From Buxus sempervirens (Eukaryota; Streptophyta; Magnoliopsida; Buxales; Buxaceae), in assembly GCA_947561395.2 (NCBI GenBank), contig OX387182.1, forward strand, positions 47,051,949 through 47,115,948: a stretch of DNA of 64,000 bases, read 5' to 3'. Below the pieces are notes generated by a model. That model was not told the DNA's origin and ran no database searches. It was given only the letters and a program-made list of their open reading frames with translations. The position numbers were made by a program, and so were the translations under genes. Below are positions 2,854-52,464 of the stretch, one piece after another. Within the stretch, counting starts at the first letter, position 1. Each line of letters starts with the position of its first letter.

Positions 2854-2860
2854 GGGAAAA

Positions 2861-2979
2861 TTTCAGAAAAGTGCTACTTTACAGCCAATATTCCAAAAAC
2901 GTGCCATAAAGATGCTTAATTTAAAAAACATGCCACTTTTGAGATTTAATTTCAGAAAGGGGTCATTGCACGTTTTCCC
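2861..2979 (+). repeat. Subterminal 30-bp repeat units (transposase-binding candidates)
   Basis: Four related units begin at 2861, 2890, 2920 and 2950, exactly about 30 bp apart. Each reads roughly TTTCAGAAA or TTTAAAAAA followed by A/C-GTGCCA-type sequence. The right TIR has three, missing exactly one unit. Tandem subterminal motifs are where Mutator-type transposases bind in known elements; the role here is inferred. Confidence 0.6.
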
Positions 2980-3012
2980 TATTTGCAATGCCCAAAATAC
3001 CCTTGAATATAA

Positions 3013-3014
<2 letters not shown>

Positions 3015-3058
<44 letters not shown>
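3015..3058 (+). repeat. 44-base poly-G run in left TIR
   Basis: This is an uninterrupted G44 homopolymer. The matching site in the right TIR has only six (near 44465-44470). It is either a real microsatellite expansion or a sequencing/assembly length artefact. It produces spurious poly-Gly/poly-Pro ORFs on both strands. Confidence 0.85.
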
Positions 3059-3059
<1 letters not shown>

Positions 3060-4352
3060 ACACGCTGACTCTCCTCTCCTGTGTGAAAAACCCTGGTTCG
3101 ACGAATGAACGCCGACGAAGAACGAACGCCGACTCCTTTCTTCGCCGGCGAACGAGGCTTGTTTTCCGAGTAACTTTGCTTCGTCTCCAAGGCCGACGAA
3201 CCCCGACCCCATTCTCCTACCCCATTGTCATCTTCTTCCCCAAAAACCGAAACCCTCTCCTTCCCCCATTCCTCTCTTCGCCGGCGAATGCGGGTGGTTT
3301 CCCCACTCAGATTTTTGTCTTCTTCAAGGTCGACGAAAGCCGACCAACTTTCCCCCACTCTCCTTCCCCATTGATCTGTTCTTCTCCAAAAACCCCTTCG
3401 CTACCTGGATGAAACCCTCTCCTCCTCCATTTGTTTCACGCATTGTTTCCCTCTCCATCGTTCATTAACCCTCTATAATCGAAAACCCTTTGTCTGTTTG
3501 CACACATTGAGGCATTGGTCGTTGGAGGGCCACCGCGGTTGAAGTTTGTCGACATGGGAGTGTTGTCGTCGACGACCCTGCTGTCTCATCGAAGTTGCTG
3601 TTCTGTTCGTCGCCATAGGGAGTGCTGCCGTTGGCGACCAGGTAGCTGCCGAGTGCCTCCCTTGAATTTGATTTTCCCCCAAACATTTGCATATTTAATT
3701 TAATTTGAATTTGCACATTTGCATATTTCCACCGATTTAAATGGTAATCTTGTTGCAAAAAAGGCTTGAATTTGAATATGAGTTGTTTGCCTTAGCGAAA
3801 TGGGGTTTTTCGAATTTGAATATAAGTTTATGGCATGTTTTTCGAATATTGGCTGTAAATGTTCAGACCATGGTTGTGGATGATTTTTGCTGTCCAGAGA
3901 AATATTTGAATGATAAATATTTTTGGTTGTTGATTTTGGTTGAACTTTCTTGACAAGCTAATTGGTTTTTTGTTGGTATTGTTTATTTGGGATTTTTTGT
4001 AGTGCTCTTTTTCTAGCATTGTCTAACTATTATTTAATTGACTTTCCTTAACTTTCATTTACTTTAATGTTGATAACATTCCTTAATTGCTTTGAGGTTC
4101 CTAAGCTGTCTTGGGCGCAATGCTTCTGATGGTCTTGATGCAAAGTTACACTTCTATAGCGGATGATGTTCATGATGTTTATACTGCATTTTGCAAAATG
4201 TGCAAGTATTTAATTTCCTTACCATGTTACTGCAATATGCTTTTCCATTTCTCTCATGGCAAGCAAGAGGGCATCTTACCTAATTTTGTTGTCAGTTGCT
4301 GCTTTGGGATCAGAATTATGCCATCTTAAGTATACGTTGAGACTTGCAATTT

Positions 4353-4357
4353 AACAT
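4353..4357. repeat. 5-bp TSD of the Tat retroelement (left)
   Basis: AACAT occurs at 4353-4357 and again at 21841-21845. The uninterrupted right TIR of the MULE (43070-43095) shows the empty site with a single copy, which proves the insertion. Confidence 0.92.
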
Positions 4358-6635
4358 TGTGAGACATGGGAAAAAATCACCGGAGTGATCATCCCTCCGT
4401 CAGCACACGGGCTCAACGCAAAAATTGGGAGAGTCGCCACCATTCATAATTTTGGGGTGAGAATGGACACCAAAGATTCAAAAGTAGGCAAAAATAGCCA
4501 AAAGAAACATTCTAGGGTAAAAATAACCCTACTTGAAAATCAAATCCAGAGATGGGTAAGGGGATTAGATTATGAACAGGGGAAGGTGTTAGGCACCCCC
4601 ATTCATCCACACAAAGTGGTTGCCAAGTGTATGTTCATGCAAAAACAAAGTAAGAAAGCTTGCTAAAAATCATGAAAAAGCCTTGAAAAAGGAACAAGTG
4701 TATGATATATTCACATGAAGATCTAAATGGATTTTAGATCCTCTCTTATGTCAATATCACTTCTGGAGTATTTCAAAAGATGGAAATCAAAGTAAAAGTG
4801 GCCAAAACCAAGTTGAGGCAAATCCGGGAATTTTGGTAAAAAGTAAGGTCCTTTGTCTTGAAATCATTCAAATCCAATTTCAAATTGATTCAAACCAACT
4901 CTATTTGAAAGATTATGATAAATAAGGAACTCACGCAAAATCTCAAGTTAATCCGATAAAAATCCTAGGAGTTATGTTCCTTTGAAGTTGCTGCTGGGGA
5001 TTTTTAAAAGTGGTAAGTGGGCAACTTTGGAAAATTGTCTAGAAAAATCCACTACACAAAAGTCCACGAAATTTGGTGTGATTGAATTTTGTATGGCCAT
5101 CTTTCAAAAGAAACTAGCCTCATACAAAAATCCCTTCGGATGTGCCTTGGGTGGTCTCCCGAACAGGCCCCGAAGATCACAGATTTACCCAGAAAAATGC
5201 AAATGAGCAGTTCTGAGTAAATCGGCTACCAATAATTCAAATGGAATCCAAAAATTATGAAACCAACTGGATTTGAAAATAGACTCATAAAGGAGTACTC
5301 AGAAACAAAAATCACTCGAATCGGACTTAAAACGAACACATGGCGGTCCGTCGAAGTGACAAGTTCTGTACTTGGACCTGAACTGTCCACTTAACTTCGA
5401 CAGAGAGGTGTCAAAAATCGGCTAGACAGAAAATCATGAAATTTGGTGGACATAAACTAGACAGCCTCACCTTTCCCATGGTTCTGGAATCGCCCCAAAA
5501 TTCATCCGAATGATGAAGTTACGGACGTCCGAAGTAGGGGTACAGGTGCTGTCAAGCTAAGCCATTTTTGAAGAAAACCAAGTCCGAAAATTGATAAAAA
5601 GTGTGTGATTCGTGTGAGATGAATCCAAAACCTTTGAAAAACATTTAAAAACACTCCAGAATTTGATTGAGGCCATTTATTTGAGTTTTATCACAATAAA
5701 TGCAATAAACCCCAAATATGAACCTATCCCGCCAAAATAATGATATGTATGTGCAAGTGTAAAAAACCAAACAAGATCAATACAACATGCATATAGATTC
5801 AACAAAATAGGTTCTAGCATAGCCTAGGGTTCCGTTCCATTATCGTTTCCCTCTGTTCTCTTTAAGATAATCAAGGGTACTTTGAATATGGAACGGTTTA
5901 CAATCAATCAAAAAGCCTTATGCTACATGGGTTCTAGCACTAGGGTCAATCCCCAGTCTCGTTTCTCCTAGATCCGCCTTCACGTTTTACGGCTAGGGGA
6001 GTCTTGAGATACTTTGAGCCGGGGAAGGATTTCCACACATACAAGCAAGGCTTTACACTACAGAAAGGTAGAAGAAGAGATCTAGATCTAGGAATGTAAA
6101 GACAGAAAATAAAAAGAAAATTTGAGGCTTACCTGAGTTCTGGAGACGATTCCACAGTGGTTTTCTTCTTCTCTTGGAGTTCTTCTTTGCGAGAATTCAA
6201 AACAAGAGTTGTGTGCCTTTTGCTCAAGGAGGAGGCTCCTATTTATAGGCAAAGACTAAGGTCATTGGTAGACACAACTTAATGTCTAGAACCCCTCCAA
6301 CCTAAACCCTAAGGTTATTTCCGCGATTTCCCCTCATTTAATGAGGGACATGATGGTAAAAGTGAAAAGCTCTCGGAAAACCCTAATTTTGAGCAAACTT
6401 AAGGTATCCGGTATATCAGACCGGATAACAAAGGGCCTTAAGGTATCCGGTACATGGTACCGGATCCACTAAGGCTCACATGTATCCGGTATGAGTATCC
6501 GGATACGGGAAAGGGTACTTGTATCCGGATTGAGTATCCGGATACAGGTAAAAGTTTATTTTCTTCAATTTCTGTGCTGGCTTTCCAGGAGATAATGATT
6601 TTTGATGATTGTTTGTGCAATTTGGGGTGTCTACA
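4358..6635 (-). repeat. 3' LTR of the Tat element (element is on - strand)
   Basis: It is 2278 bp, the same length as the right LTR at 19563-21840. On the - strand it starts TGTAGACACC at 6635 and ends ..GTCTCACA at 4358. It has a TATA-like TATAAATA (6240-6247, - strand) and the TATCCGG stem-loop array (6403-6547). By-eye differences from the partner are few (for example near 4590, 4993, 5052, 5086). Confidence 0.95.
6403..6547. repeat. Four-unit TATCCGG/CCGGATA stem-loop array in LTR
   Basis: Four successive short palindromes have arms TATCCGG(T) and (A)CCGGATA around 5-9 nt spacers. The same array is at 21608-21752 in the partner LTR, at 29019-29166 and 50156-50301 in family A solo LTRs, and as a related copy in the leader at 17933-18080. 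It lies in the U3 part, upstream of the TATA box in element orientation. Function unknown. Confidence 0.8.
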
Positions 6636-6655
6636 ACTGTCCCTCTTTGTGGGAG
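6636..6655 (-). promoter_or_regulatory. Polypurine tract of the Tat element
   Basis: Read on the - strand, the bases just before the 3' LTR are CACAAAGAGGGACAGT, a purine-rich tract in the position where plus-strand DNA synthesis is primed. It is not a perfect PPT, since two C residues interrupt it. Confidence 0.6.
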
Positions 6656-7036
6656 CTGCGAAGCAGTGAGCTGCAAAGAGTAGACAAGCCCAAATTGCAT
6701 TCCCTTGAGCATGATTTGCTCGGTTTAATTCAATTTCTGTAGAAAACCATTTTTGAGTGGAGATTTGCCAAAAAGTCCTCACTTTAAGGGGGCATCTCTC
6801 CAAGAGTTCTTAAATTCCACTGAGCCCTTTGTGGCTGTGAAGTGGATTTTAAGCCCAAAAATAGGATTTTTGAAAAACTGATTTTTTATCAAACCAAGTT
6901 GAAAATTGAGTGGATATCATCCTTTTGACCAGGCACATTTCCCAAAGTTGTCCCGAATTCCACAGAGCTCTCGTGGCTGTGAGGTGGATTTCAAGACAAA
7001 ATAGGATTTTGAGAAAATAGAAATTGTAGCACAATT

Positions 7037-7256
7037 TTGCTCTTTCCTTTTCCTTCTCTTTTTTCTTTTCTTCTTTTTTTTTCTTTTTTTCTTTTCTCTT
7101 TTTTTTTTCCTTTTTTTTTTTCATTTCCTTTTCTTTTTCTTTTTTCCTTTTCATTTCCTTTTCTTTTTTTTTTCTTTTCATTTCCTTTTTTCCTATTCTT
7201 TTCTGTTTTTTTCTCTATTTTTTTCTGTTTTTTTTTCTTTTTTTTTTTTATACAAT
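7037..7256 (+). repeat. 220-bp pyrimidine (T/C) tract before the antisense ORF
   Basis: This is almost pure T and C, mostly TTTTC-type units. It ends in TCTTCCTTTGCAG at 7270-7282, a strong splice-acceptor context. As read on the + strand it could be the polypyrimidine tract of an intron feeding the antisense ORF. Confidence 0.7.
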
Positions 7257-7282
7257 GCTGACATATCCCTCTTCCTTTGCAG

Positions 7283-8161
7283 CTTTGGCTACTTGATCAT
7301 TTGAGCCAGATTGAAGAGATCAATCGACACTTCTTCCCGAGTCTGAAAGTCCCTCTCTTGATGAGCAACAGGGGGTGCCCCGATATTCCAGGGGGCAAAC
7401 AGGGCTGGTTCACTTTCTTGGGCTCGCTTCAGGATGACCAGGTGAGATGGCCTGGTACTTATCAGCCTAATGCGGAGACAGTGATTAGCTTCCGAGACCG
7501 CAACTTTCTGATTCTGGCGGGCCTGAAGCATGCAGTGCTGTATCTTCCTCTGCGGGTCCTTCGTCAGTTCCGAGCGACCCAGGGGATTATCATCCCATGT
7601 GGATATGAGGATCGTCTTGGGCCCCTTTCTATGAAGCTGAATGCCTGGTTGATGAAGGAGTGGTCCTATGTCCGCTTTATGCATGGTCCAGTCTTCTCAG
7701 AAGCCCATGTGAAGGATTATCTCTTCTGGATCAAGGAACAGATACGGACTCAGGCCCCGGTACCCGAAGATCCTCCTGTAGTCTTGGCTCCCACCTATGA
7801 GGACATTCTAGAGTCTGAGCGGGCTTCTCATAAGCGGATTCAGCAGATATGGGTACGGGAGGCCCAGGAGCTCAGGATACATGGCACGTATCTGGAGAGG
7901 CAGCTTGAGGATCAGATCTCACGCCGTATTGCCGTGGAAGAGAAGCTGGAGGAGCTGAGGCAGGCCCGTTGCTTCGAGGTCCGTATGATCCGGCAGAAGT
8001 ACCAGGCTACTTTGGCCAGCCTTAGGAGTATGAGGATCAAGCAGGCCCTTTCAGATGAGGTCATTTCCTTCCTGAGTGATCCCGCTGCAGAGGGGGCTTT
8101 AGGAGTTATTGCAGCTCAGGCAGCTCGGATTCGGGAGCTTGAGGAGCGGCTAGGAGATTAG
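7283..8161 (+). CDS. Antisense extra ORF of the Tat element (plant-mobile-domain-like)
   Basis: The ORF is about 292 codons, opposite in strand to gag-pol, between integrase and the 3' LTR. There is no ATG at the start of the similarity; the frame begins right after a strong acceptor (TTCCTTTGCAG, 7272-7282), so it is probably a downstream exon. The N-terminal half has aromatic-rich, LPLRVLRQF-type sequence like the helical plant mobile domain / DUF7745-type proteins found in LTR retroelements. The C-terminal half (from about 7780) is a charged coiled coil ending RELEERLGD. Extra ORFs in antisense at this place are known in Tat relatives such as Grande (gene23) and Retand. Its role in transposition is unknown. 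The frame is intact, in keeping with the young insertion. Confidence 0.7.
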   Translation, partial: LWLLDHLSQIEEINRHFFPSLKVPLLMSNRGCPDIPGGKQGWFTFLGSLQDDQVRWPGTYQPNAETVISFRDRNFLILAGLKHAVLYLPLRVLRQFRATQGIIIPCGYEDRLGPLSMKLNAWLMKEWSYVRFMHGPVFSEAHVKDYLFWIKEQIRTQAPVPEDPPVVLAPTYEDILESERASHKRIQQIWVREAQELRIHGTYLERQLEDQISRRIAVEEKLEELRQARCFEVRMIRQKYQATLASLRSMRIKQALSDEVISFLSDPAAEGALGVIAAQAARIRELEERLGD

Positions 8162-9081
8162 CTTTATTTCCTGCACATTTTTCATTCCTTTGTACAAAAT
8201 TGAACTCCAATAGTGGAAATACAAAGGATTTAATTCAAAATAAAGTTTTTATATTATTGGCCTCAGAATGCTCAGATGCTTGTAAAAACAAAGGTTTTAT
8301 GAAAAGTATTTGATTTCTCATCACTGGCCAAAGTATAATTTTTTCTTTTTATATTTTTTTTATTTTTTTGAAATTTGGTCCATGCACTTAATCACCTATA
8401 ATTAAAGGAATTAAAAACCAGGTTAAATAATGAAAAGGGTAGTCCAAAAAATACTGAGGGATCAGAACCGTCCATCTTAGGATCTTTAGAGTCATCCCCA
8501 AAATGCCAAAACTGCCCCATTCTGCTCATGCCAACTTTGCTTAAAGCTCAGATCCCCATGATCAACTCAACCTCTGATTTTCTTTCATTTTTCTTATTTT
8601 TTTCTTTTTGCCAATATTGCCCCTAGCGCCAGTTACGGTTTTCACTAGGGCCGGCTTCTGAATTCCGTCATCACCCATCTTACTCTGATATTTGAATGAA
8701 CCAACTAAGATCACCAAGGGCTTAAAAAAATAGGACGAAATAAAGGCTAGGCTCAGTTTATGAAAGAAAGGGTATTAAAGGCCCAAAAATTTTCAAGTGT
8801 GGAAATAGGTCAACCGGATTTACAGTCATGATGAATTTAACCCTTTTTCCCCAAATTGCATTTTTTTTTGCATTTTTTTCTCACACTTGGCTTTCATTTG
8901 CCATTTCCATTGCTTTTCCTCTCTTTTTCTTTTCCTTTCCTCACTTTTGCCCCAATTTGACTGTAAATCCGGTTTGGGTTGATCAAAGAAACGAACCGGC
9001 TCAACTTGGCTAGACTAGGGATTAAAATTTTTGAAGGAAATAAAGAAAAATGGCCTCGGATCATTTCCTAGAAATATTCAC
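8162..9081. other. Tat spacer between antisense ORF and integrase
   Basis: This is non-coding sequence of the element between two convergent reading frames, rich in T runs. Near 8819-8975 there is an imperfect inverted arrangement of CCGGATTTACAGTCA and TGACTGTAAATCCGG (8814-8829 and 8957-8972), a 15-bp inverted repeat. No gene is seen. Confidence 0.6.
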
Positions 9082-10263
9082 TCAAGGAAAATACCTTTTT
9101 ACCGCATCAGAGTTAATGGGCTCAGGAAAATCTGACCCATCCATTTCTGCTAAGATGAGTGCACCCCCTGATAGGACTTTCTTGACGACATATGGGCCTT
9201 CCCAATTGGGCTTGAACTTACCACGAGGATCTTCCAAAAATGGTAAGATTTTCTTTAGCACTAAGTTTCCTTCTTGGAAAGTTCTAGGCCTCACTTTCTT
9301 ATTGTAGGCCCGGGCCATTCTCTTCTGGTACAACTGGCCATGGCAAAGCGCTTTCAACCGCTTTTCTTCTATCAGGTTAAGTTGATCATGTCTCGACTGG
9401 ACCCATTCGGCTTCTTCTAGTTCTGCTTCCATGAGCACTCGGAGTGATGGGATCTCCACTTCCACGGGCAAGACTGCTTCCATCCCATAGACTAGGGAGT
9501 ACGGGGTTGCCCCAGTTGAAGTTCGGATCGAGGTTCTGTATGCATGCAGAGCAAGTGGCAGCATTTCATGCCAATCCTTGTAGCTCACTACCATCTTCTG
9601 AATGATTTTCTTTATGTTCTTGTTTGCTGCTTCCACTGCCCCATTCATCTTTGGCCTGTACGGAGCTGACTTATGATGGGTGATCTGAAACTGCTCACAC
9701 ATTTTCTTCATGTCCTTGTTCTTAATATTTGAAGCATTGTCTGATACTATGGCATTTGGCAGTCCATAGCGACAAATGATGTTGTGCTTCAAAAATTTAA
9801 TAACATGGTTGCTTGTGATGTTCGCATATGAAGCTGCTTCCACCCACTTAGTGAAGTAATCAATTGCTACCAGGATAAATCTGTGCCCGTTCGATGCCTT
9901 AGGGGAGATCATGCCGATGACATCTATGCCCCACATAGAGAAGGGCCAGGGTGATGTCATGTTGTGCAGCTCACCTGGGGGTGCATGCTTGTTATCTGCA
10001 TATATTTGGCATTGATGGCACCTCCTGACATGTATACAGCAATCATGCTCCATGGTCGTCCAGTAGTATCCCAGCCTCAGGATCTTCTTTGCCAGCATGT
10101 ACCCACTCATATGGGGCCCACAGACTCCTCCATGTACAGTCTCAATCAGCCTTTCCGATTCAGCCTTGGCAACACATCTTAGCAGAATGTCGTTATGTGA
10201 CCTCTTGTACACATGTCCACCACTTAGCAGAAATTGACCAGCCAATCTCTGTATTGTCCTCTT
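9082..10263 (-). CDS. Integrase of the Tat element (3' part of pol)
   Basis: The zinc-binding HHCC domain (VHGG..GPH, then CHQC) comes first, then the catalytic core: Asp in WGIDVIG, Asp in VSDNAS and Glu in GAVEAAN with the standard 35-residue spacing between the last two. The C-terminal region contains the GPYVV-type beta domain. The same frame continues upstream into RNase H but is cut by a single TAG at 10264-10266, just after ..NATAT. This may be a point mutation in this copy. No ATG is expected because this is the end of a polyprotein. It acts in the nucleus to insert the cDNA. Confidence 0.93.
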   Translation of the reverse strand, partial: KRTIQRLAGQFLLSGGHVYKRSHNDILLRCVAKAESERLIETVHGGVCGPHMSGYMLAKKILRLGYYWTTMEHDCCIHVRRCHQCQIYADNKHAPPGELHNMTSPWPFSMWGIDVIGMISPKASNGHRFILVAIDYFTKWVEAASYANITSNHVIKFLKHNIICRYGLPNAIVSDNASNIKNKDMKKMCEQFQITHHKSAPYRPKMNGAVEAANKNIKKIIQKMVVSYKDWHEMLPLALHAYRTSIRTSTGATPYSLVYGMEAVLPVEVEIPSLRVLMEAELEEAEWVQSRHDQLNLIEEKRLKALCHGQLYQKRMARAYNKKVRPRTFQEGNLVLKKILPFLEDPRGKFKPNWEGPYVVKKVLSGGALILAEMDGSDFPEPINSDAVKRYFP

Positions 10264-12669
10264 CTAAGTAGCAGTGGCATTTTCTGGCAAACTCCGATTG
10301 TTCAAGAAATTTTTGATATCTTGAAACCATGGTGTTTCTTCTTCTGGTGCTCCCTCTAGAACGAGACAGTAAGCCGGTTCATCTCTAACCTCAATTTCCA
10401 GTGGTCTGATGTCTACTCCTTCTGATATGCTGACCATTGAAGCCAAGGTTGCTAGAGCATCCGCAAACTGATTCTTGGCCCTTGGCATATAGTTGAAGGA
10501 AATTCGAGTGAAATTTGTGCTTATTTCTTCCAAATACTGGTGATAGGGGATCAATTTGTGATCCTTGGTTTTCCACTCACCAGTTGTTTGGAAGATGATA
10601 AGACTCGAATCCCCGTATACGTCAAGTTCCTCTACTCCATGATCCATGGCTGCTTGCAATCCAATTATGCATGCCTCATATTCTGCTATGTTATTGGTGC
10701 ACTGGAATCTCAGCTTTACTGCAATCGGGATGTGAGAACCATCCGGTTTGACCAAGACTGCCCCTATTCCGTTCCCATTCATGTTGGCGGCCCCATCAAA
10801 GAACATCTGCCAAGAACTCTCACTGTCTTCCTCTTCAGTGTACAGAATTGCCTCATCTGGGAAGTTGGTCTTCAAGGGTTGATATTCTGGCAGAGGATGT
10901 GCAGCCAGGTGATCAGCTATGGCTTGACCCTTGATCGCCTTCTGGGTGATGTACGTGAGGTCAAACTCGGATAGTAGCAGTTGCCACTTAGCCGTTCTGC
11001 CAGTCAGTGCCGGTTTCTCAAATAAATACTTCAGCGGGTCCATCCGTGATATCAACAGTGTGGAGTGACTAAGGAAATAATGCCTTAGCCTCTGAGTGGC
11101 CCACACTAGAGCACAGCAAGTCTTTTCCAATGGTGAGTATTTGGCTTCATATTCTGTGAATTTTTTACTCAGATAGTAAATTGCTCTTTCTTTTCTACCA
11201 GTCTCATCATGCTGCCCCAAGACACATCCCATTGACGTTTCCAACACTGACAAGTACAGGATCAGTGGTCTTCCTGGAGTTGGTGGCACTAGCACAGGTG
11301 GGTTCAGCAAATACCTCTTTATTGTGTCAAATGCCTGCTGGCAGTCCTCATTCCAGACCGTAGGGTTATCTTTCCTTAAAAGTTTGAAAATTGGTTCACA
11401 GATAGCAGTGAGCTGTGCTATGAACCGGCTTATGTATTGAATCCTTCCAAGAAAACCCCTGACCTCCTTCTTGGTTCTGGGTGCTGGCATTTCAATTATG
11501 GCCTTGGCTTTTGCCGGGTCAATTTCAATTCCTCTTCGGCTCACTATAAACCCCAGTAACTTCCCTGATGTAGCCCCAAAGACGCATTTAGCCGGGTTAA
11601 GCCGTAGACTGTACTTCCTGAGCCGATCAAACACTTTCTTCAGATTGATCAAGTGGTCCTCCTCTTTGCATGATTTGGCAATCATATCGTCCACGTAGAC
11701 TTCCATCTCTTTGTGGATCATGTCATGAAATAGTGCAGTCATGGCCCGCTGGTATGTTGCCCCAGCGTTCTTGAGCCCAAATGGCATGACTGTATAGTGG
11801 AATGTGGCCCAAGGTGTGATAAATGCTGTTTTCTCTTGATCCTCCTTAGCCATCTTGATCTGATTATATCCTGAGAAACCATCCATGAAGGAAAACAAGC
11901 TATGTACCGCAGTATTATCGACCAGAATGTCGATATGTGGAAGCGGAAAATCGTCCTTTGGGCTTGCCCTGTTCAAGTCTCTATAGTCCACGCACATTCG
12001 GACCTTCCCGTCCTTCTTGGGTACCGGCACTATGTTTGCGAGCCACTCTGGGTACGTAGAGACTGCCAAAAATCCGGCTTGAAATTGTTTGACCACCTCG
12101 TCCTTGACCTTCAAGGTCCATTCCGGCTTCAATCTTCTCAGCTTCTGCTTAATCGGCTTAACCCCTGGCAAAATTGGCAACTTGTGCACCACCATGTCAG
12201 TGTCCAACCCCGGCATGTCCCGATATGACCAAGCAAACACATCCTTGTAATCTGCCAAGAACTGTGACATTTCATTTTTCTGCACATCAGACAAGCATGA
12301 CCCGATTTTTACAATTTTTGGGTCCTCTTTGGTCCCAAGATTTATGGATATGGTCTCTTCAATATTAGGTTGGACCCCCTTTTCATGACGTTCTAATTGG
12401 TATTCAATTTCTTTTGGAACATCTTCTTCTTCGACCTCGGTCTCTTCTTCGACCCCCATGAGATCAAAGTCGAGCTCAAGGTCGAAGTCATATTCAACCT
12501 GGTCCAATTCGGTCTGATTATATGGCTCATAAGTGGTTTGGACCTTTTTGAAAAAATTAAATTTCCTAGAAAAAATAGAAAAATCTTTTTGGTTTTTTTG
12601 TGGGCCTTCTAAACATAATTCCCCTGAAGACGAAGGCCCATTAGAACCTTCAGGGAAATGGCATTCCAC
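10264..12669 (-). CDS. Reverse transcriptase and dual RNase H of the Tat element
   Basis: An 801-residue frame. An acidic linker (residues 50-90) precedes RT with FSFMDGFSGYNQI (about 259-271) and the catalytic YVDD (325-328). The gypsy RNase H/connection follows (about 470-600), then a second, archaeal-type RNase H starting MFFDGAANMNGNG (about 622-634) and including NNIAEYEA. Two RNase H domains in tandem mark the Tat lineage. The frame begins without ATG in the -1 frame relative to gag-protease, so expression probably depends on frameshifting at the A-run at 12678-12686 or on a spliced RNA. It ends at TAG 10264. Confidence 0.93.
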   Translation of the reverse strand: MECHFPEGSNGPSSSGELCLEGPQKNQKDFSIFSRKFNFFKKVQTTYEPYNQTELDQVEYDFDLELDFDLMGVEEETEVEEEDVPKEIEYQLERHEKGVQPNIEETISINLGTKEDPKIVKIGSCLSDVQKNEMSQFLADYKDVFAWSYRDMPGLDTDMVVHKLPILPGVKPIKQKLRRLKPEWTLKVKDEVVKQFQAGFLAVSTYPEWLANIVPVPKKDGKVRMCVDYRDLNRASPKDDFPLPHIDILVDNTAVHSLFSFMDGFSGYNQIKMAKEDQEKTAFITPWATFHYTVMPFGLKNAGATYQRAMTALFHDMIHKEMEVYVDDMIAKSCKEEDHLINLKKVFDRLRKYSLRLNPAKCVFGATSGKLLGFIVSRRGIEIDPAKAKAIIEMPAPRTKKEVRGFLGRIQYISRFIAQLTAICEPIFKLLRKDNPTVWNEDCQQAFDTIKRYLLNPPVLVPPTPGRPLILYLSVLETSMGCVLGQHDETGRKERAIYYLSKKFTEYEAKYSPLEKTCCALVWATQRLRHYFLSHSTLLISRMDPLKYLFEKPALTGRTAKWQLLLSEFDLTYITQKAIKGQAIADHLAAHPLPEYQPLKTNFPDEAILYTEEEDSESSWQMFFDGAANMNGNGIGAVLVKPDGSHIPIAVKLRFQCTNNIAEYEACIIGLQAAMDHGVEELDVYGDSSLIIFQTTGEWKTKDHKLIPYHQYLEEISTNFTRISFNYMPRAKNQFADALATLASMVSISEGVDIRPLEIEVRDEPAYCLVLEGAPEEETPWFQDIKNFLNNRSLPENATAT

Positions 12670-15600
12670 TATTGGAGTTTTTTTTTGGAAGCCGCGTCAG
12701 TTTGCCGTACAGACGCTGCTTCAAAAGTAAGGGGAGTTTCCTCCCAATTGTTCAGTACAAAATTTTTGGGAGCAGGGGAAATAGGGAAAACCTGCTCCTC
12801 AAGCCCAGCATCCGATGCCATCATCACCGGGTGGGTACTGCCCTTTTCTGCTACGGGGCCCAATCCAGAAATGACCTCTTCCGGAATCTTTACTGCGGCC
12901 CAGTCAATAAACGGCAGTTCCATGTCTGTCCCTGTCTTTTCGCCTTCAGTCATGGCGAAGAATGCACCAACATCCTCAGAAAAGTCCACCTGCTGCTCGG
13001 GCTGTGGTCCAGGCCCATCCACTGCTCCCAGTATTGGAGATGGGTTATAGGGTTTTAGGGCCGAAACAGAAGGCTTTTGAAATGGGTTGACATTGTAGTA
13101 GGGAGGTTTTGATTGGTCCATAGGAGGAGAAATTTGGATTATATAAGCGGGTTTAGGGAAACTTTCCCTTAAATGAGGGAGTTTTCCTTTGCTTCTGCTC
13201 TCCCCTTCTTCGTGCTTCATTCTTCTCCAGCCTCTGGGCTTGAAGCCCAACCCTACCCTTGGGACTAGTTTCTTAGCCGTGATTGGCTCCACCATCCCTT
13301 GCAGATTGATCCCCAGGCCTTTCCCTGGGTGAAAGTGGTATTTCTCCATCACTTTCTTGACCATTTTTTCTGCAGTGGTCCCCTTTTCCTTCTTTTTCTC
13401 ATACCCCCCAGGTATGTAATTTACCGCCTCAAATTGAAATGAGTGGAATGCAATCTTGTCGACAGTTAGGTCCACATTGATCAAGGGTACATCGGGTGAC
13501 ACGATGGGTGGCACCAAGTTTTCAGCTAGGACTGTTATCACCCTTTGCCCTCTTATGTACTTCACTCTTTGGTGGAGCGTGGATGGTATTGCCCTAGCCG
13601 AATGTATCCACGGCCTTCCTAGGAGCAGATTGAAGGCTGTGGGTATATCCATCACCTCAAATGTGATGTTAAAGATATTCGGCCCAATTGTGACCGGCAG
13701 TTCAATCTCCCCTAAGGAGTGGGTCTTGGAGCTATCAAAAGCCCTCACTATCCGCCCATTCCGTTTGATCCTTGACTGGTCCAGACCCAGCTTGGTAAAA
13801 GTGATTAACGGGCAAACGTTTAACGCTGACCCGTTGTCAATTAAAACCCGTGCAACCATGCAGCCCTTACAAAGCACAGTTATGTGCAAAGGGTCCACAT
13901 GATAACACCCACCTGGGCTGATCTCACCCTCTGAGAAACTTATCACATTATGTGACAAGATTTGACCAACCATTTTACCAAGCTGGTCCGGATCAATGGT
14001 CTGGGATACGTGTGCACTCTGTAGCACCCTTAACAATGCATCCCTGTGCTTTTTAGAATTCAGCAAAAGGCCCAGTATTGAAATCTGGGCCGGGACCTTG
14101 TTCAGCTGATCCACAAGATTGAATTCACTTTTCTTTATTATTTTTATGAGGTCGGCTGCCTCATTTTCTGCACCCTGGGGGGTGTCTTCTCCCACTTTAT
14201 TTTTTCCTTTTTGTTTTCTTTTTTCATTTTCTTTTTCTATTTTTTCTTTTTCTGCTTCTGTCTCCTTTTCTTTCTCTTCACCCCCTGCACATCTCCCCGA
14301 CCTCGTCATGAGGTTCACCTCCTCCTGGTTCTGGTTCCTGACCATTGGAACCGTAGCCGTGATTCCCTCGCTGTAGTTCCATGGTACAGCGGCCTCTGAA
14401 TAGGCTAATTTAGGGATGTCAACCACTAGTGGCTGGAGTTTGGACCGGGATGTATGGGCCGGTTTAGGGATAGCATGGGCTGGCTGCACATTTACAACCA
14501 AGGGTTGAAGTTTGGAATTTGTGGGGACAGAAGAAGTGATGGAAGCAGTGGTGGGGTCAAGATTGATGACCAGGGGAGCCTTAGACGGCTTGGATGGAGA
14601 ATAAGTGGGTGGACTGCAATTGAAGACCAATGCGGGCCTTGCAGTATTCATCTGGGTCATAAGAGATGAGACCCGGTTCAAAGAGGAACTTATGTCCTCA
14701 GCAGCTGTATTATTTTTTTGGGAGACCATGTTGATCTCCTCTTTTTCCTCTTCTTGGAAGAAACGGACCTGGACAGTGGTCCCTACTGGTGCTATAAGCT
14801 GTGATGGGTCAAAGGCCCTTCTGGTGGTGGATATGGCAGTGATGGAGTTGGATGGGCCTGCCCCATTGTGGTAAGGCAGAGGATTCTGCCCAATATCATT
14901 CCCGGACGGGGCCGGTGCAGCAGTGTTGAACACCAAGGCCTTCTGGTCCAACAAATCCTGGACTGCATGCTTCAATACCCAGCAGGTATCAGTAGAATGC
15001 CCCGGTGCACCCATGTGGAAATCACAGGTGACCGATGTGTCAAAATTTCTCCCTTTCGGGGCATTTGGGTTAGGCTCCTTCAGAGTCAAGTATTCCCCTT
15101 TCAGCAGGGTTGGCAGTAGTTGGGACAGAGATATGGGTAGAGGGGTGAAAACCCGGTTCTTTCTTGCTGTGAACCAGGCATCCGGCTCCTCCTTAGAAAA
15201 AGTCCTCCTTGTGTTAGCTGGCACAGAGGGAGAGAAGTTGACATTCAGCGGGGTCTGGTACGACTGCTGGGCCTGCTGGGCCTGTTGGGGTGCCGAGATG
15301 TTGACGTGAAGTGGCTTCTTAGCTGGAGGGGCCTGGACCAGGTTCACCTCCCCTTCTTTTCGGGCCCCCGTCTTTTTAAATCCGGCCCCTTTTTTCTGGG
15401 CCATGGAGGCAGAGGAATCAGACTGCCCAGTCAGAGTAGAGTAGTCTATCAGCCGTCCTGACCTGACCCCTTCTTCAATCCGATCAGCCACCTGCACCAG
15501 GGCTGCAAAGTTGGTGGTTATCTGACCCACCAGATGGTTGTAAAAGGGCTGCCCCAGTGTGCCCATAAATGTGGAGATCATCTCCGGCTCTTGCATAGGT

Positions 15601-16499: not shown

Positions 16500-16539
16500 A
16501 CCCCTATATATGTAAACCAGTAGGTTAGGTGAACACCAA

Positions 16540-19560: not shown

Positions 19561-19562
19561 GT

Positions 19563-26622: not shown

Positions 26623-26627
<5 letters not shown>

Positions 26628-26711: not shown

Positions 26712-26712
<1 letters not shown>

Positions 26713-34368: not shown

Positions 34369-34645
34369 GTTTTTGAGGTGGCTCCTTCTCTGCACATGGT
34401 GGAGCTCCGAAAGACAGGAGGGGACACATTGGGGTTTCACAAGGCATGTTTTTAATTCCTAAAATTATTTTAAGCTTTCTTTGCATGCCCTTCTTGATAT
34501 GAGTTTTGGTTCTTGAAAGACTAGGTATGTTAGTTGACTAATAGTAGGTATTACCCAACTCTCTGAGAATATGCAGTTCTACAAAAGTCTCTTCAGGATT
34601 AAAAGATATCGTCTGGAAGCCTGAATCAAACAGTGAAGAAACGAG
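34369..34645 (+). pseudogene. Captured CIPK kinase C-terminal exons
   Basis: Exon 34369-34443 encodes VFEVAPSLHMVELRKTGGDT and a few more residues, which is the regulatory C-terminus of CBL-interacting protein kinases (CIPK3/9/23 group). Exon 34577-34645 begins FYKSL and, after a small deletion causing a frameshift, matches the usual SSGLKDIVWK continuation. The donor of the first exon is GC. There is no kinase domain in the window. Its place inside a MULE, between MULE genes, indicates gene capture as in Pack-MULEs. It is most likely nonfunctional. Confidence 0.8.
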
Positions 34646-35686
34646 GTGCTTTCTCTCTCCCTCCCTCCCTTCCCCTTTCTATTTTTGTGTATAAGTCGAA
34701 ATCAGATTTCTGACACGCTTTTGCATATGCAGATCATAACATAAACAAAGCTATGGCTCCAGTACTGCATTGTTCCCTATGAGTGCTTCAAATCCCATTT
34801 ACACCTGTGGATTATAGAATGTACATAGTGGTCCATGAAAGTAGAACGCTTATCGGGTTACGGAGTTCAATGCTAAAAGAGATGCCTAAAATGAGGGAGG
34901 CCGGAAACACAGCTCATGGTTTGGTTGGCATTTGGTTTGAATTATATTTGATGGGGAGAAGATGAAATAAATTTATTGCGAGGTATCTAAAGGTGCCATT
35001 ATTCCTAGCCATGTTTTTCCTGCTCTAATGAGATGGAATTCTCCATTTGTTGCTGCATTTGAAGATGACTGCCTCAATTATGAAAGGGACACCTTTACAG
35101 CAGAGGGTGTTTTTCTTTTTCCTTTTTTCTTGTTTTTTGAGGTTGAGATTCTGTAACTTTATGAGGAGACAGTTATGATTCTTGTGAGTAACAACATTTG
35201 ATTTACCTTGAATGTTTTACCTTGCTTTTAAATACAGTTGGTCGTGGTACCACATGGTGGGAACTGCAATTATAAATATTGGATTTCTTCAGTCATATGG
35301 AATTTGGGGTGTCTCCCAAATTTATTGAGCCAGTGCTTTAAAAGTGCACCTAACGGCTACATTTCGTCAAGCTGCCACAACAAGATAACATTTAAAGCAA
35401 CTACTTTATCACAAGAAGTGCTTTGCAATTGGTCATCTGTAGCATTTATAGATTAATTTTTTTGGGTTTTGGTTTTTCTTATTGTTATATTATGTTATCT
35501 TCCCAAGGGTTTTTTGACTTTTTTGTTGTTGTGTTTTTTACTCTTTTTGCTCAATCCTTGTGGGTACCTTGTACTTTTTCCCCCTTTTAATATTTAGGTT
35601 CTGAAACATTCAAATGTACACATTTGTCGTAAGTGGAGTTTTCCAATCAACAACTATGGATTTCTGCAATAAGAAAATCTACAGAG
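34646..35686. other. MULE interior after the CIPK piece
   Basis: Probably intron/3' UTR carried along with the captured CIPK fragment. There is a CT-rich tract near 34645-34680. No gene is recognised. Confidence 0.35.
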
Positions 35687-35815: not shown

Positions 35816-36064
35816 GGTTACTTCACAGTCTTTGGAACCATGGTCCGGCAATGAATTGATTACAAAATTTATCTAGCTGTCTGAGTCATTAGATAAACCC
35901 AGAAAAATTGCTGAAGAAGATAAATCCTTTGTTTGTTGTTTGGAAATTTGTGTTATGTATTGAGATTGTGAGATCCTAAGATAGTAAAAGAAAGGGCGTT
36001 TCTTTGTTTTTTTTTTGGGTGGTACCTGCTGCATTTCTGAATGTGAGCTTCAATTGTGATACAG

Positions 36065-36139
36065 GTAAAAGCAATGGAGTTGATTAATCAAATGGAAGTC
36101 ACAAGGCGTGGGCCATACAGTGGTGGACTTATACAGGGG
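36065..36139 (+). pseudogene. Captured exon of anthranilate synthase alpha subunit
   Basis: After an AG acceptor (..ATACAG, 36064) the frame reads VKAMELINQMEVTRRGPYSG, the conserved chorismate-binding signature of anthranilate synthase component I (first step of tryptophan synthesis), then diverges into a stop. Only this exon is present. It is another host gene fragment inside the MULE, on the + strand. Isochorismate synthase is a less likely source because the V-T-RRGPYSGG form suits plant ASA. Confidence 0.72.
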
Positions 36140-36657
36140 TAGCGTTTTCATAATTTTGGGACAGGTTGAGAAGAACACTGGCTGTGTGAAATACTACATG
36201 TTTTGTTGCCAGTTCTTGCTTCATGTGCTCTAGTTTTTGCTTCCTAAATGTAGGGAAATAGTTTACACCCAAGGCTAACAGGCACCTCATAATTTCAACA
36301 AGTCTAAGATTTATCACCAGCTCTACTCATTAATTGTAGTTAACCAATGAAGAGTGATTGAGGCCTCCATTTTCACTTTTTCCTTTATTCCTATTTTCTG
36401 GGCACTATATGACCTAAGTTCTTTTTCATAAGACCTTTAGTGAATGTGAACATTGTATCAAACATAATGTTCTTTTTTTTTTTATGAAAATGGAAATAAA
36501 ACTACTTTTCGGTTCTCATACATGGTCTTTAGTTACATATTACATAATATTTACTAGGAACTTGTCTGACCAAATAAAACTACATTTAGTAGCACTTTTT
36601 AACCAAAACTCAACGATAACCACACCAAACATGCATCTCCATCACCGGTAAACCAAT
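36140..36657. other. MULE interior, 3' side of the GRF gene
   Basis: AT-rich with no gene. It is the convergence zone between + strand and - strand MULE transcription units. Confidence 0.4.
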
Positions 36658-37356: not shown

Positions 37357-37544
37357 AATTGACTCGCTTGAAACACTTGTATTTATAAACAAGTTGGAAG
37401 GCAGGCCCACGTGAAACACGTTGGTTGTATTAGAAGATGCGAGCGCGAAAAATATGAGGGGACTTGACCTATTTACTAAGGACTTGATTGTACTTGACGT
37501 ACGACTCAAGCACACCAACATAGGATTTTTAGTAGGAGGGACTC

Positions 37545-38390
37545 GAGCAATTTTACATGGGACTCGAGGTAAGGATAGGCGAGAGCACGGGACTCGAGCT
37601 ATTTTACACGGGACTCGAGCAAGTATACGTGCGACTCAAGCAATTTTACATGGGACTCGAGCTATTTTACATGGGAGTTGAACTAAGTATACATGGGACT
37701 CAAGCAATTTTACATAGGACTCGAGCAATTTTACATGGGACTCGAGCTAAGTATACGTGGGACTCGAGCAATTTTACATGGGACTCGAGCTAAGTATACA
37801 TGGGACTCGAGCAATTTTACATGAGACTCGAGTTAACGATAGGCGGGACCACGGGACTCGAGCTATTTTACATAGGACTCGAGCTAAGTTATATGTGGGA
37901 CTTGAGCAATTTTACACGGGACTCGTGCTATTTTACATGGGACTCGAGCTAAGTATATATGGGACTCGAGCAATTTACATGGGACTCGAGCTAAGTATAC
38001 ATGGGACTCGAGCAATTTTACATGGGACTCGAGTTAGCGATAGGCGGGACCACGGGACTCGAGCTACATTACATGGGACTCGAGCTAAGTATACATGGGA
38101 CTCGAACAATTTTACATAGGACTCGAGCTAAGTATACATGGGACTCGAGCTAAGTATACATGGGACTCGAGCAATTTTACATGGGACTCGAGTTAACGAT
38201 AGGCGGGACCACGGGACTCGAGCTATGTTACATGGGACTCGAGCTAACTATACGTGGGACTCGAGCAATTTTACACGGGACTCGTGCTATTTTACATGGG
38301 ACTCGAGCTAAGTATACGTGGGACTTGAGCAATTTTACATGGGACTCGAGCTAAGTATACATGGGACTCGAGCAATTTTACATGGGATAT
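37545..38390. repeat. CTCGAG minisatellite at the centre of the MULE
   Basis: About 40 units of 19-22 bp have consensus ATGGGACTCGAGCAATTTTA, alternating with GGGACTCGAGCTAAGTATAC. Three or more higher-order blocks carry GATAGGCGGGACCACGGG. Most units contain the palindrome CTCGAG. Peptides read across it (GTRAILHGTRA.. type) are repeat artefacts. It lies just upstream of the GRF gene start, so it may include its promoter. Confidence 0.93.
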
Positions 38391-40260: not shown

Positions 40261-40273
40261 TTTGAGCTCCACA

Positions 40274-40307
40274 GGTTGCTTATTTGGAAATAACCAAATA
40301 AGCAACC
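40274..40307. repeat. Perfect 14-bp inverted repeat
   Basis: GGTTGCTTATTTGG and CCAAATAAGCAACC are separated by six bases. This is a small foldback in the same Ulp1 intron. Confidence 0.85.
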
Positions 40308-42292
40308 TAAGGGCATTATCCAATATCTGTATAATGCTCATGTAACTTATGGTAACATATGAGTGATAAAATTGGGAACTTACGAACTACTTTGACAGGG
40401 CACGGACACAGGCACCAGTGGCCACTCCTGCACTCTCTTGTCACAGCCAGGTTTAAGCTCCTCAAAGACTTTTGCAAAAAACGTTGTCTACAATGAAAAT
40501 TGAACCATTCAATATCAAATTATATAATACATTGAAACTATATAGTTCTTTACATACCAATTTTGTTGATACAGCACGATAATCAGCAGGCCGATTCTTC
40601 GGTACTAAATCTAGCACTTCGACCCGCTGCTCCTTGATGTTCAAAACAACCAGGAACCAATGGCTCCTCCTCAAGATCGGTAGGAAAACCTATCAAATGA
40701 CAATACAAGGTGTACTCGGCGTTAATAATTATGTAAATGAGAGTAATAAAATATTCGAAGTTTATCATACCATATGACATCGAAGCAAACTACATCCTAG
40801 AACATCTTGTGAAAATTGACTTTGTACAGCATCTTCTACAGTCAATGTTCCTTTTAGGATTGCACCCTGTAAATCACAAGTACAATATATTAGTCCGCTG
40901 TAGTACTCCATACGCATTGATAATTAATTATTGTAAGCGTCCTAACATACAATCTTGTATACATACAGATGTGTAGGGTGTAATATAATGACGACGGATA
41001 GTTGATGCATGTTCCCGCGTAGATTTGACACGGGCAAGCACATACATGTGCATAACCTATTCCACAATCACCTTAGTGAGAAAACTAATCCAAGTACCAT
41101 TGTAACCTAAAACAAATGATACACTTTTCAATACAAAAAACTTACCAAGTCGCTAACCCTTCGTCGTGGAAAAAGACCAAGTAGCTCAAATTGAGTCGCA
41201 TAGCAATCACCGAAATCAACAAGTTTTTCCCTGCATGCGTCAATTCCACTTATAAGGCCAAAAAAAAAAAAACAACAACCAACTATGAACACAATATTGA
41301 ATGGTGTAAATCTCTTAATTATTGTCAATCACAGAAGATATATACTTACATTGGCGACCCCCCTGTCATGGCATACATCCACGATTTTGTCTCTTGTTCA
41401 GGTAATGGGGGGAATCTATGCGTCTCTACAAAGGGTGACCTCAATTTATGTACAAGGTGCTTTACTCGCTTCCCTCTACCTCTGGGACAAGACTGCATCG
41501 TACTTGGACCCTCAGATGTAGTTGCGGGTTCATCGTGTGGCACACTTCCAGCAAAAGGAGGCGATGAAAACTCTGAGTGTGCATCAAAAGTGCCATTGCC
41601 ATCTGGAGGTGGTGGAGGAGGCACATCATCAGTAGAAGGCCAGTCGGGCTCAGCATCTGGAGGTGGTGGATGTGGAGTGGCTTAAAGAGGCAGCAAAGTC
41701 GATACAATGCCGTGTGAAGTCACGGGCAAAGTAGATCATACGAACAATATGACTTCGTAATACCTATGACAATGAAAACATATTGATGAAAGGAGATGTA
41801 TAGAAGAATGTGTAAAATAAAAAAAATAATGCAATGGCTTGCCTTACCGGATCTATATCTGTCGGCACGTGAGTCACATCATTTGCCCGCTCCTGATCCC
41901 GTGCAAAATCCATGCCTAAGGCACATAACATTCACATACAAAATATGATTTTAAACTTTAATACAAGATGCCACCTTGCCTCATTCCTGTTTAAACTCAA
42001 AAGAACATATCTCCATCTATAAAATAGGCTAGCTTCAAGAAAGCAGGACAAAAATGTTAAATGGTGGAACTGTGCAATCGGATTTTGTTAAGAATAGATT
42101 AAAATGTTCCATTTGATTTCAAGTTTCTTTTGTCTGATGAATGTCTCTTAATTTATATATTTTCATTTAGATCAACATTATGAATTTTTATTTTAGTTAC
42201 AAATGGAGTTTGATCCTTTTTGACTCTCTATATTTGAGTTACTGGATATCTTGCTAGATAGAAGCAACGTTAAAGGAATGTGTCAAACTTAG

Positions 42293-42640
42293 ATGGACAG
42301 CTTAATATATTGGAATGCTTCTCTAAATGCATGCAGGTATTCGACAGGTTTTGGGGTTTCTGGTGGTAGTGCATTGATTCATGAATTCTATTCTACTGAA
42401 GTACCAAATCCTGTTCATTTGACTGTTGACACGGGTTTCAGAAATGGTGAGCCTACCATCAAAGCTTTTGTTTCTGTCAGTTCGTCCCTTGGAGATAGGC
42501 AACTTGCAACACAATTTCAAGAAATCCCTTTGGATCTATGTATGGTTGAAGCTGAGCGAGTTGGATGTATGTATATAAAGCTATATTCACATTCTGACTT
42601 GATCTTACTCACCTTTTTTGTTTATTGGTGTACTTTGTGA
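42293..42640 (+). pseudogene. Open frame of 115 codons, probable captured exon
   Basis: Unlike its surroundings this stretch has codon-like composition and stays open; the central part (VPNPVHLTVDTGF.. KAFVSVSSSLGDR.. FQEIPLDLC) looks like real protein. A CAG acceptor candidate ends at 42335 and a GTATGT donor lies near 42569. I do not recognise the family. Because it sits inside the MULE near the right TIR, a host gene piece is the likeliest source. Confidence 0.45.
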
Positions 42641-43048
42641 CCTTGTATGTTTAAATAAAACTAAGTGAACATTTGCATTTTATGGCCAATACTTAAAAAA
42701 CTTAGTTACCATCAGATGTGCACTAATCCAACATGGGCTTAGAATTGCTATCTATGTCTGAATTGTGATATTTTCTTTGAAAATTAAGATATGAAATTTA
42801 TTCTTGATCTCAACTCCATGGCAATTTTTAGTTGACTGAACCATTGGCCACTTCAACTGAAAAACAAATTTTTTTTACAGGATAGCTATTATGTTTACTA
42901 TGATATATGGATTAGAATAGTGGGCATTATATGGTGAATTTTGCTAAAATGAGGACAATGAGATCAATGTGTAAGAAGACTAGATGAGCATTTAAGAGTG
43001 TATAGGTATTGTCCAATTAGGAGATCAAACAAACGAAAATAAATTCCT
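42641..43048. other. MULE interior between open frame and right TIR
   Basis: AT-rich with no gene. A small palindrome (AAATAAATTCCTGATG.. ..CATCAGGAATTTATT, 43038-43076) straddles the inner TIR edge. Confidence 0.45.
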
Positions 43049-44597
43049 GATGTCCTATGGCCATCAGGAATTTATTACATGTTAAATTGTAAGTCTCAAC
43101 GTATACTTAAGATGGCATAATTCTGATCCCAAAGCAGCAACTGACAACAAAATTAGGTAAGATGCCCTCTTGCTTGCCATGAGAGAAATGGAAAAGCATA
43201 TTGCAGTAACATGGTAAGGAAATTAAATGCTTGCACATTTTGCAAAATGCAGTATAAACATCATGAACATCATCCGCTGTAGAAGTGTAACTTTGCATCA
43301 AGATCATCAGAAGCATTGCTCCCAAGACAGCTTGGGAACCTCAAAGCAATTAAGGAATGTTATCAACATTAAAGTAAATGAAAGTTAAGGAAAGTCAATT
43401 AAATAATAGTTAGACAATGCTAGAAAAAGAGCACTACAAAAAATCCCAAATAAACAATACCAATAGAAAACCAATTAGCTTGTCAAGAAAGTTCAACCAG
43501 AATCAACAACTAAAAATATTTATCATTCAAATATTTCTCTGGACAGCAAAAATCATCCACACCCATGGTCTGAACATTTACAGCCATTATTCGAAAAACA
43601 TGCCATAAACTCATATTCAAATTCGAAAAACCCCATTTCGCTAAGGCAAACAACACATATTCAAATTAAAGCCTTTTTTGCAACAAGATTACCATTTAAA
43701 TAGGTGGAAATATGCAAATGTGCAAATTCAAATTCAATTACATATGCAAATGTTTGGGGGAAAATCAAATTCAAGGGAGGCACTCGGCAGCTACTTGGTC
43801 GCCAACGGCAGCACTCCCTACGACGACGAACAGCAACTTCGATGAGACAGCAAGGTTGCCCGCGGCAACACTCCACACCGTAACGAAAACCAACTTCGAT
43901 GAAACAGTAGGGTCGTCAACAACAACACTCTCACGGCGACAAACTTCAACCGCAGTGGCTCTCCAACGACCAATGCCTCAATGTGTGCAAACAGACAAAG
44001 GGTTTTCGATTATAGAGGGTTAATGAACGATGGAGAGGGAAACAATGCGCGAAACAAATGGAGGAGGAGAGGGTTTTGTCCAGGTGGAGAAGGGGTTTTT
44101 GGAGAAGAAGAGATCAATGGGGAAGGAGAGTGGGGGAAGTTGGTCAATGTTCGTCGGCCTTGAAGAAGACGAAAATCTGAGTGGGAAAACCACCTGCATT
44201 CGCCGGCGAAGAGAGGAATGGGGGAAGGAGAGGGTTTCGGTTTTTTGGAGAAGAAGATGACAATGGGTCGGGGTTCGTGGGGGTTCATCGGCCTTGGAGA
44301 TGAAGCAAAGTTGCTCGGGAAACAAGGCGCGTTCGCCGGCGAAGAAAGGAGTAGGCGTTCGTTCTTCGTCGTCGTTCGTTCGTCGAACCAGGGTTTTTCG
44401 CACAGGAGAGGAGAGGAGAGAACGACGATGAGAGGGAAACACGCACGTGTTTCCCTCTCTTTCCCCCCTTATATTCAAGGGTATTTTGGGCATTGCAAAT
44501 AGGGAAAACGTGCAATGACCCCTTTCTGAAATTAAATCTCAAAAGTGGCATGTTTTTGAAATTAAGCATCTTTATGGCACGTTTCTGAAATTTTCCC
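43049..44597 (-). repeat. Right TIR of the MULE
   Basis: A 1549-bp inverted copy of the left TIR, uninterrupted. It shows the pre-insertion state of the Tat target (AACAT once, near 43078). It differs from the left TIR by loss of one 30-bp subterminal unit, a short G run and about 70 extra bases near 43845-43925. It should hold the promoter for the - strand genes. Confidence 0.9.

Positions 44598-52398: not shown

Positions 52399-52464
<66 letters not shown>

Follow-up and report, generated by a model that had tools for sequence, protein, structure and literature searches.

The window considered here is a stretch of 64,000 nt of Buxus sempervirens DNA (OX387182.1, 47,051,949-47,115,948, forward strand), and positions 2854-44597 of it are spanned by a damaged Mutator-like element (MULE). 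Within the element lie a mudrA transposase gene, a gene joining an HMG box to a plant mobile domain (PMD), a double GRF zinc-finger gene and a Ulp1 peptidase gene. Comparison with other loci indicates a large autonomous MULE family, recently amplified and recurring with several genes, of which this is a decayed member. Its parts are as follows, in window coordinates:

2845-2853, no strand: left target-site duplication (TSD) AAAGAAAAA, by sequence comparison
2854-4361, plus strand: left terminal inverted repeat (TIR), which resumes at about 21848-21875 past a Gypsy insertion
22664-24952, plus strand: mudrA transposase gene, by Pfam domains, which three in-frame stops disrupt in the window copy
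25405-25494, 25584-25638 and 25723-25857, plus strand: HMG-box exons 1-3 of the HMG-PMD gene, by Pfam and homology
31291-31893, 31999-32136, 32218-32292 and 32377 to about 32430, plus strand: PMD exons of the HMG-PMD gene, by Pfam and homology
37356-37198, 37121-36981 and 36879-36658, minus strand: double GRF zinc-finger gene of three exons, by Pfam
37538-38387, no strand: tandem array of 33 units, mostly of 21-22 bp, with core GGGACTCGAGC, 5' of the GRF gene
41913-39286, minus strand: Ulp1/SENP-type peptidase gene of nine exons, by Pfam, damaged in the window copy by an apparent frameshift and a stop
43049-44597, minus strand: right TIR, 95% identical to the left TIR
44598-44606, no strand: right TSD AAAGAAAAA, by sequence comparison

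The 9-bp TSD is perfect on both flanks and, AAAGAAAAA being A-rich, is weak evidence by itself. The element ends in GGGAAAATTTC on the left and GAAATTTTCCC on the right, and its TIRs, of about 1.54 kb, are identical at 1396 of 1464 aligned positions (95.4%), with a long G run near 3016-3058 in the left one. Once a later Gypsy element and a later solo long terminal repeat (LTR) are subtracted, about 18.9 kb remain. An earlier account made from the letters of this DNA (the sequence-only reading) had described a perfect 9-bp TSD, TIRs of about 1.5 kb and an original element of about 19 kb, all of which agree with these measurements.

The transposase gene starts at about 22664 and retains a C-terminal open frame of 424 amino acids (23678-24952). 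It matches the Pfam profiles MULE (PF10551, 4.4e-16), DBD_Tnp_Mut (PF03108, 9.5e-12) and SWIM (PF04434, 1.1e-6), all above cut-off, and these domains, together with a 9-bp TSD outside long TIRs, place the element among the MuDR-type MULEs. The 1.54-kb TIRs set it apart from KI-MULEs, a class without TIRs. With Pack-MULEs it shares host gene fragments (CIPK23-like, eIF3f and, weakly, anthranilate synthase), but Pack-MULEs are non-autonomous and have no transposase gene, whereas transposase domains are present here. No fusion of the accessory domains with the transposase was found, as 0 of 93 transposase relatives from other plants list HMG, PMD, GRF or C48 domains, and a search for relatives among viral contigs found none. 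The window copy itself is dead, given the stops in the transposase, the apparent loss of the HMG-PMD start and the apparent frameshift and the stop in Ulp1.

The host genome searched comprises 676.5 Mb, and 99 of 923 transposase candidates were scored, so that all match counts are lower bounds. At least 100 transposase matches were obtained, at least 63 of them at 84% identity or more (family A, window included), at least 4 at 70-83% and at least 33 at 64-69%. The sequence-only reading had called for a look at intact copies and, among the matches listed, 21 of the 63 have a 646-codon frame with no stop in the match, as do 12 of the 33 in the most distant group with a full-length frame of 628-630 codons. 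Ten of the 62 non-self family-A matches were read as copies (rows 2-11 of the transposase table); two of the 62 look like pieces of one copy. Eight of the ten carry transposase, HMG, PMD, GRF and Ulp1 together in the same order and orientation, which is why we regard the element as a recurrent multi-gene MULE. One of these, K01, has an interrupted PMD part, and its Ulp1 was found after 7 kb more sequence. The two exceptions are K03, an 8.2-kb internal-deletion derivative that keeps the TIRs and part of Ulp1 and has no HMG, PMD or GRF, and K06, which lacks GRF. Perfect 9-bp TSDs lie outside the whole gene set in four of the ten copies (K04, of 19,021 bp, K05, K07 and K08); in K05 and K07 they consist of T- and A-runs and carry little weight as evidence. 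Across the 13 copies fetched from family A and its sister family B, the TSD is 9/9 in five (these four and B1) and partial in B3 (8/9), K03 (7/9) and K06 (6/9), while no pair of element ends was found for K01, K02, K09, K10 or B2.

Alternatively, mobile elements with no relation to one another might have nested by chance and so have given rise to this gene set. Nested LTR elements do occur in the window copy, and Ulp1-like sequences are common in the genome (at least 144 Peptidase_C48 profile matches, with 150 of 509 candidates scored). However, the same order is found at eight of ten other loci, the perfect TSDs of K04, K05, K07 and K08 enclose the set, and no inverted repeat longer than 23 nt was found within the element parts searched. 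Together these observations largely refute such a composite, which we consider very improbable, and the anatomy described here is close to certain. They also answer the question raised in the sequence-only reading, whether the four genes recur together between matching TIRs, in favour of such recurrence. The opposite situations it named, TIRs enclosing none of the genes or the genes lying elsewhere between different ends, did not occur in the copies read. The nested elements are later insertions:

4362-21842, minus strand: Gypsy LTR retrotransposon, outside the original element, by its TSD AACAT and LTR pair
25905-31254, minus strand: solo LTR in an HMG-PMD intron (TSD 4/5)
26461-29016: solo LTR nested inside the preceding one (TSD TCCTT)

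The Gypsy insertion sits within the left TIR, its LTRs are identical at 2268 of 2279 positions, and its domains include gag with a G-patch and reverse transcriptase/RNase H. This young element has an additional 299-aa open frame (7262-8161) with no Pfam match at E<=0.01.

In the HMG-PMD gene, the HMG box matches its Pfam profile at 3.2e-11 and the PMD (PF10536) at 1.2e-11, with 44.9 bits against a cut-off of 34.9. The sequence-only reading had recognized a four-gene set, and a transposase, an HMG-PMD, a GRF and a Ulp1 gene are indeed present, but its label "DUF1985-like" for the second of these is better replaced by PMD. DUF1985 (PF09331) scores 12 bits (E 0.21) on the same protein against a cut-off of 35.1, so that by score it gives way to PMD. 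The HMG and PMD parts are one spliced gene with three HMG exons and four PMD exons, a model supported by colinear proteins of Parasponia, Populus and Hibiscus. These are three of the eight proteins that a PMD-part query matched at E<=10 among 1099 candidates (an earlier, less dense protein search with HMG-PMD gave nothing at E<=0.001). They carry an HMG box and a PMD in one chain, then a SINA zinc finger, the Hibiscus PMD match and the Populus SINA match both being below cut-off. The alignment crosses the HMG/PMD exon junction unbroken, at 31-35% identity over its length, so that the element shares its HMG-PMD architecture with host-like genes, although it has no C-terminal SINA zinc finger. 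The host-like proteins (P0094, P0098 and P0100) are possibly a domesticated relative or a donor of the element's gene; in the literature searched, nothing fitting on an HMG-PMD-SINA combination in plants was found. In the window copy, no AG acceptor matches the frame of the second PMD exon, and homology was used to set where this exon begins. The start codon of the HMG-PMD gene has probably been lost there, because nine sister copies with a placeable HMG have an in-frame ATG at a place where the window has another codon. The predicted fold of the PMD exon (mean predicted local distance difference test score 58.7) gave nothing usable with Foldseek against the PDB (best E 2.5). In a Prunus speciosa protein (P0101) the PMD and DUF1985 profiles match overlapping residues, both below cut-off, and this overlap points to a relationship between the two Pfam families.

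The GRF gene product matches its profile in two stretches (E 2.3e-21), and its closest solved structure is the tandem GRF of NEIL3. Between this gene and Ulp1, with some 6 kb separating it from the closer of the two element ends, the array holds 30 of the 35 CTCGAG sites of the window. A CTCGAG array is present in all eight GRF-bearing family-A copies, with 21-58 sites over the 20 kb read, a few lying outside the array (the 32 sites of K01 are a lower bound, since its sequence ends inside the array), whereas K03 and K06, both without GRF, have no array and one CTCGAG each. Spacings of 21, 22 and 43 bp, approximately two and four turns of DNA, account for 193 of 245 intervals between motifs. 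In the window, 15 bp are exactly common to the array and GRF exon 1, whereas 91 other pieces reach 11 bp at best. An origin of the array as a copy of this exon is no more than a possibility, the shared site differing in five of the eight GRF-bearing copies. The observed/expected CpG ratio of the array is high and is not used as evidence, as homogenised repeats produce such values anyway.

The Ulp1 gene matches Peptidase_C48 (PF02902) at 0.003, below cut-off, without its last exons and at 1.8e-10 with them. In an alignment with SENP2 the His, Asp, Gln and Cys that we take to be the catalytic residues are matched at each of the four positions, and the element accordingly belongs to the Ulp1-bearing MULEs. 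A derivation of its first exon from the last exons of HMG-PMD is not proposed, as the DNA match is reached by 43 of 1000 shuffles and the protein match is weak (11 of 2000). Many of the Peptidase_C48 matches in the host genome share the same profile range and frame length and so point to other abundant Ulp1-bearing repeats in B. sempervirens.

The element also contains pieces of host genes, which the sequence-only reading had missed:

34340-34660, plus strand: CIPK23-like kinase gene fragment, frameshifted (E 2.2e-17), also in one of the ten other copies
36050-36150, plus strand: probable anthranilate synthase gene fragment (weak match, 0.055), present in seven of ten copies
42330-42580, plus strand: eIF3f gene fragment (E 4e-16), in none of the ten other copies

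These captured fragments are passengers, a Pack-MULE-like part of the element. The accessory genes could be seen in the same light, as transduplicated host genes without a role for the element.

For family B, three of the 33 matches at 64-69% were read, the first three rows at 67-68% transposase identity. The transposase is 67% identical to that of family A, and the terminal GGGAAAATTTC is common to both families, although a comparison of the family-B TIRs with that of family A yielded nothing at E<=1e-3. B1 has probably moved recently, because its TIR stretches are 99.4% identical over 865 bp and its TSD, TTATAGTAT, is perfect. The family-B copies keep a PMD and a weak HMG match, and in B1 and B2 these and Ulp1 lie in the same order and orientation as in family A. 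The B1 PMD reaches 20.6 bits, below the cut-off of 34.9; its HMG match (5.4e-4) also stays under the cut-off, and the exon that was read contains a stop; the Ulp1 of B3 is one short weak match of 24 residues at E 0.031. PMD identity to family A is about 45% and HMG identity about 31%, against 67% for MURA. No GRF was found by tblastn at E<=1 in the three copies or by Pfam on the B1 minus strand, and the family-B copies have zero CTCGAG sites. In the same interval as the CTCGAG array they carry an array of a GGATAC motif with alternating 20- and 22-bp spacing. This interval also holds, in place of GRF, a further gene, in B1 a 445-codon frame matching PF20167 (2.9e-18; Pfam was run on B1 only), which is likewise open, in two pieces, in B2 and in B3.

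Selection within family A was measured as omega, the pooled pairwise dN/dS between copies, with the window excluded, stop codons skipped and limits from a codon bootstrap. K03 was dropped for HMG, PMD, GRF and Ulp1, K01 for PMD and Ulp1, and K06 for GRF; the PMD part comprised the first two PMD exons only, and Ulp1 the peptidase exons only. Omega is 0.32 (0.21-0.50, n=10 copies) for MURA, 0.29 (0.18-0.51, n=8) for PMD, 0.43 (0.25-0.75, n=9) for HMG and 0.39 (0.20-0.77, n=8) for GRF, where 3 of 1000 bootstraps reach 1 or more. On these values all four look to be maintained by purifying selection. In favour of the passenger reading, real passengers are present in the element (the CIPK and eIF3f pieces and probably anthranilate synthase), relatives of HMG-PMD that resemble host genes carry a SINA domain, and Ulp1 is near neutral within family A. 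However, omega is below 1 for HMG, PMD and GRF. PMD, Ulp1 (weak in B3) and a weak HMG match occupy the same place in family B at 67% transposase identity, and independent passengers are not expected to stay in order in eight of ten copies. A passenger origin without function is therefore improbable in our view.

The alternative to passengers is that the accessory genes serve the element, and VANDAL transposons offer a model. Their VANC proteins attach to motifs repeated in tandem and cause DNA methylation to be lost (PMC5735166; also PMC10398659). Like the Buxus families, VANDALs combine a conserved transposase with a faster-evolving protein of DUF1985/PMD type and family-specific short-motif arrays in noncoding DNA (PMC5735166, PMC10398659); such arrays are found in families A and B, although small in B3. 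PMD and HMG diverge more between the families than MURA, as VANC diverges more than VANA (PMC5735166). The systems differ in that VANC carries DUF1985 and the Buxus element, by profile score, a PMD with an HMG box, and in gene set, and anti-silencing is proposed here by analogy. PMDs occur in MULEs, while the host proteins MAIL1 and MAIN silence transposable elements, and an anti-silencing role for MULE PMDs has been a matter of speculation (PMC5418596).

The best overall explanation, to which we assign a probability of about 0.5, is that of an autonomous MULE family with accessory genes working as an anti-silencing module; that the set acts in the VANDAL/VANC manner is somewhat less probable. 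Transposition would follow the ordinary cut-and-paste route, with MURA acting on the TIRs and 9-bp TSDs being left. The HMG-PMD or the GRF protein would be an element-encoded DNA binder recognising the phased CTCGAG array, and the array-bound protein could load on the element's own copies and strip silent chromatin marks. The PMD might interfere with the host MAIN/MAIL1 silencing complex, and Ulp1 might take SUMO off silencing factors. The purifying selection on HMG, PMD and GRF and the motif array fit anti-silencing.

It is also conceivable that the accessory proteins work in transposition itself, with HMG bending DNA, GRF binding single strands and Ulp1 processing protein. HMG boxes bend DNA, single-stranded DNA is bound by tandem GRF domains of the NEIL3 type, and the genes are kept beside the transposase. 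However, MURA by itself or with one helper mobilises many plant MULEs, the array lies far from the ends used by the reaction, and K06 has an open transposase frame without GRF. We consider this role unlikely and favour anti-silencing because of the VANDAL-like pattern and the speculation on MULE PMDs.

Several observations weigh against an anti-silencing module. Omega for Ulp1 is 0.72 (0.41-1.35, n=8 copies; 1 or more in 133 of 1000 bootstraps), indistinguishable from neutral at this depth, and the gene may be drifting within family A. Each of the five gene parts has stops in some copies (e.g., HMG codon 50 in K01, K06 and K08), and PMD or GRF is frameshifted in K02, K01 and K09. K06 lacks both GRF and array, yet has TIRs and a stop-free transposase frame. 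The GGATAC array has 26, 21 and 8 sites in B1, B2 and B3 and is thus small in B3. Pairwise omega comparisons are phylogenetically non-independent, and the copies read number only 10 for family A and 3 for family B. Minisatellites, moreover, also arise in transposable elements without function.

A more specific and more doubtful version of the anti-silencing explanation is VANC-like, sequence-specific anti-silencing in a non-VANDAL MULE lineage, built on HMG-PMD. In this version MURA, HMG-PMD and Ulp1 would form a conserved core, while related families would exchange a cassette of helically phased array and partner gene (CTCGAG with GRF in A, GGATAC with PF20167 in B), and each family would free its own copies only.

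Parts of this gene set have precedents, judged from the relevant sections of the papers cited. Ulp1-bearing MULEs are known as the Arabidopsis KI-MULE and from melon, rice and grapevine (Mutavine) families (PMC2528002, PMC13317346), and antisense Ulp1 and elements of 16-18 kb are already in print (PMC2528002). They resemble the Buxus element in MURA, in a Ulp1 gene able to oppose MURA in orientation, in the 9-bp TSD and in large size, Mutavine-1 measuring 17.7 kb. However, KI-MULEs lack TIRs, and the longest TIR in the grapevine table is 710 bp, against 1.54 kb in Buxus; the sections consulted make no mention of HMG-PMD, GRF or a motif array. Of the plant MUDR groups, most have a PMD entry, among them MUDR, MUDRAVI2, MDR and VANDAL (PMC6446971), and PMD is an accessory domain there as here (PMC6446971, PMC5418596). 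In Buxus, by contrast, it is joined to an HMG box and lies on the transposase's strand, and Table 1 of PMC6446971 has no HMG, GRF or Ulp1. The open-licence literature searched yielded no description of MULEs with HMG-PMD, GRF or an array of this kind. The sequence-only reading's statement that the four-gene set had not been described stands for the open-licence papers searched, but Ulp1 in MULEs (PMC2528002) and PMD in MUDR groups (PMC6446971) were known. What appears new relative to this literature is HMG-PMD, GRF and a phased array in a MULE.

Elsewhere in the window, two tandem MIR169_2 microRNA precursors lie on the minus strand at 1182-1288 (7.4e-22) and 1431-1534 (1.6e-18), some 1.3 kb outside the left boundary of the element. 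The minus strand at 58111-62668 has LINE-like frames that include zf-RVT and RNase H domains, as well as a Gypsy fragment, and 52001-54000 is strongly A+T-rich (20% GC).

The retention of Ulp1 and PMD genes by plant transposons calls for an explanation, and for the PMDs of MULEs the literature consulted only speculates about anti-silencing (PMC5418596). The Buxus family is multicopy, has open frames and a candidate target array, and includes both a deletion derivative and a copy that lacks GRF together with the array; with a sister family whose array differs, it would make the matter directly testable outside Arabidopsis. The system is thus a promising one for asking how transposons escape silencing.

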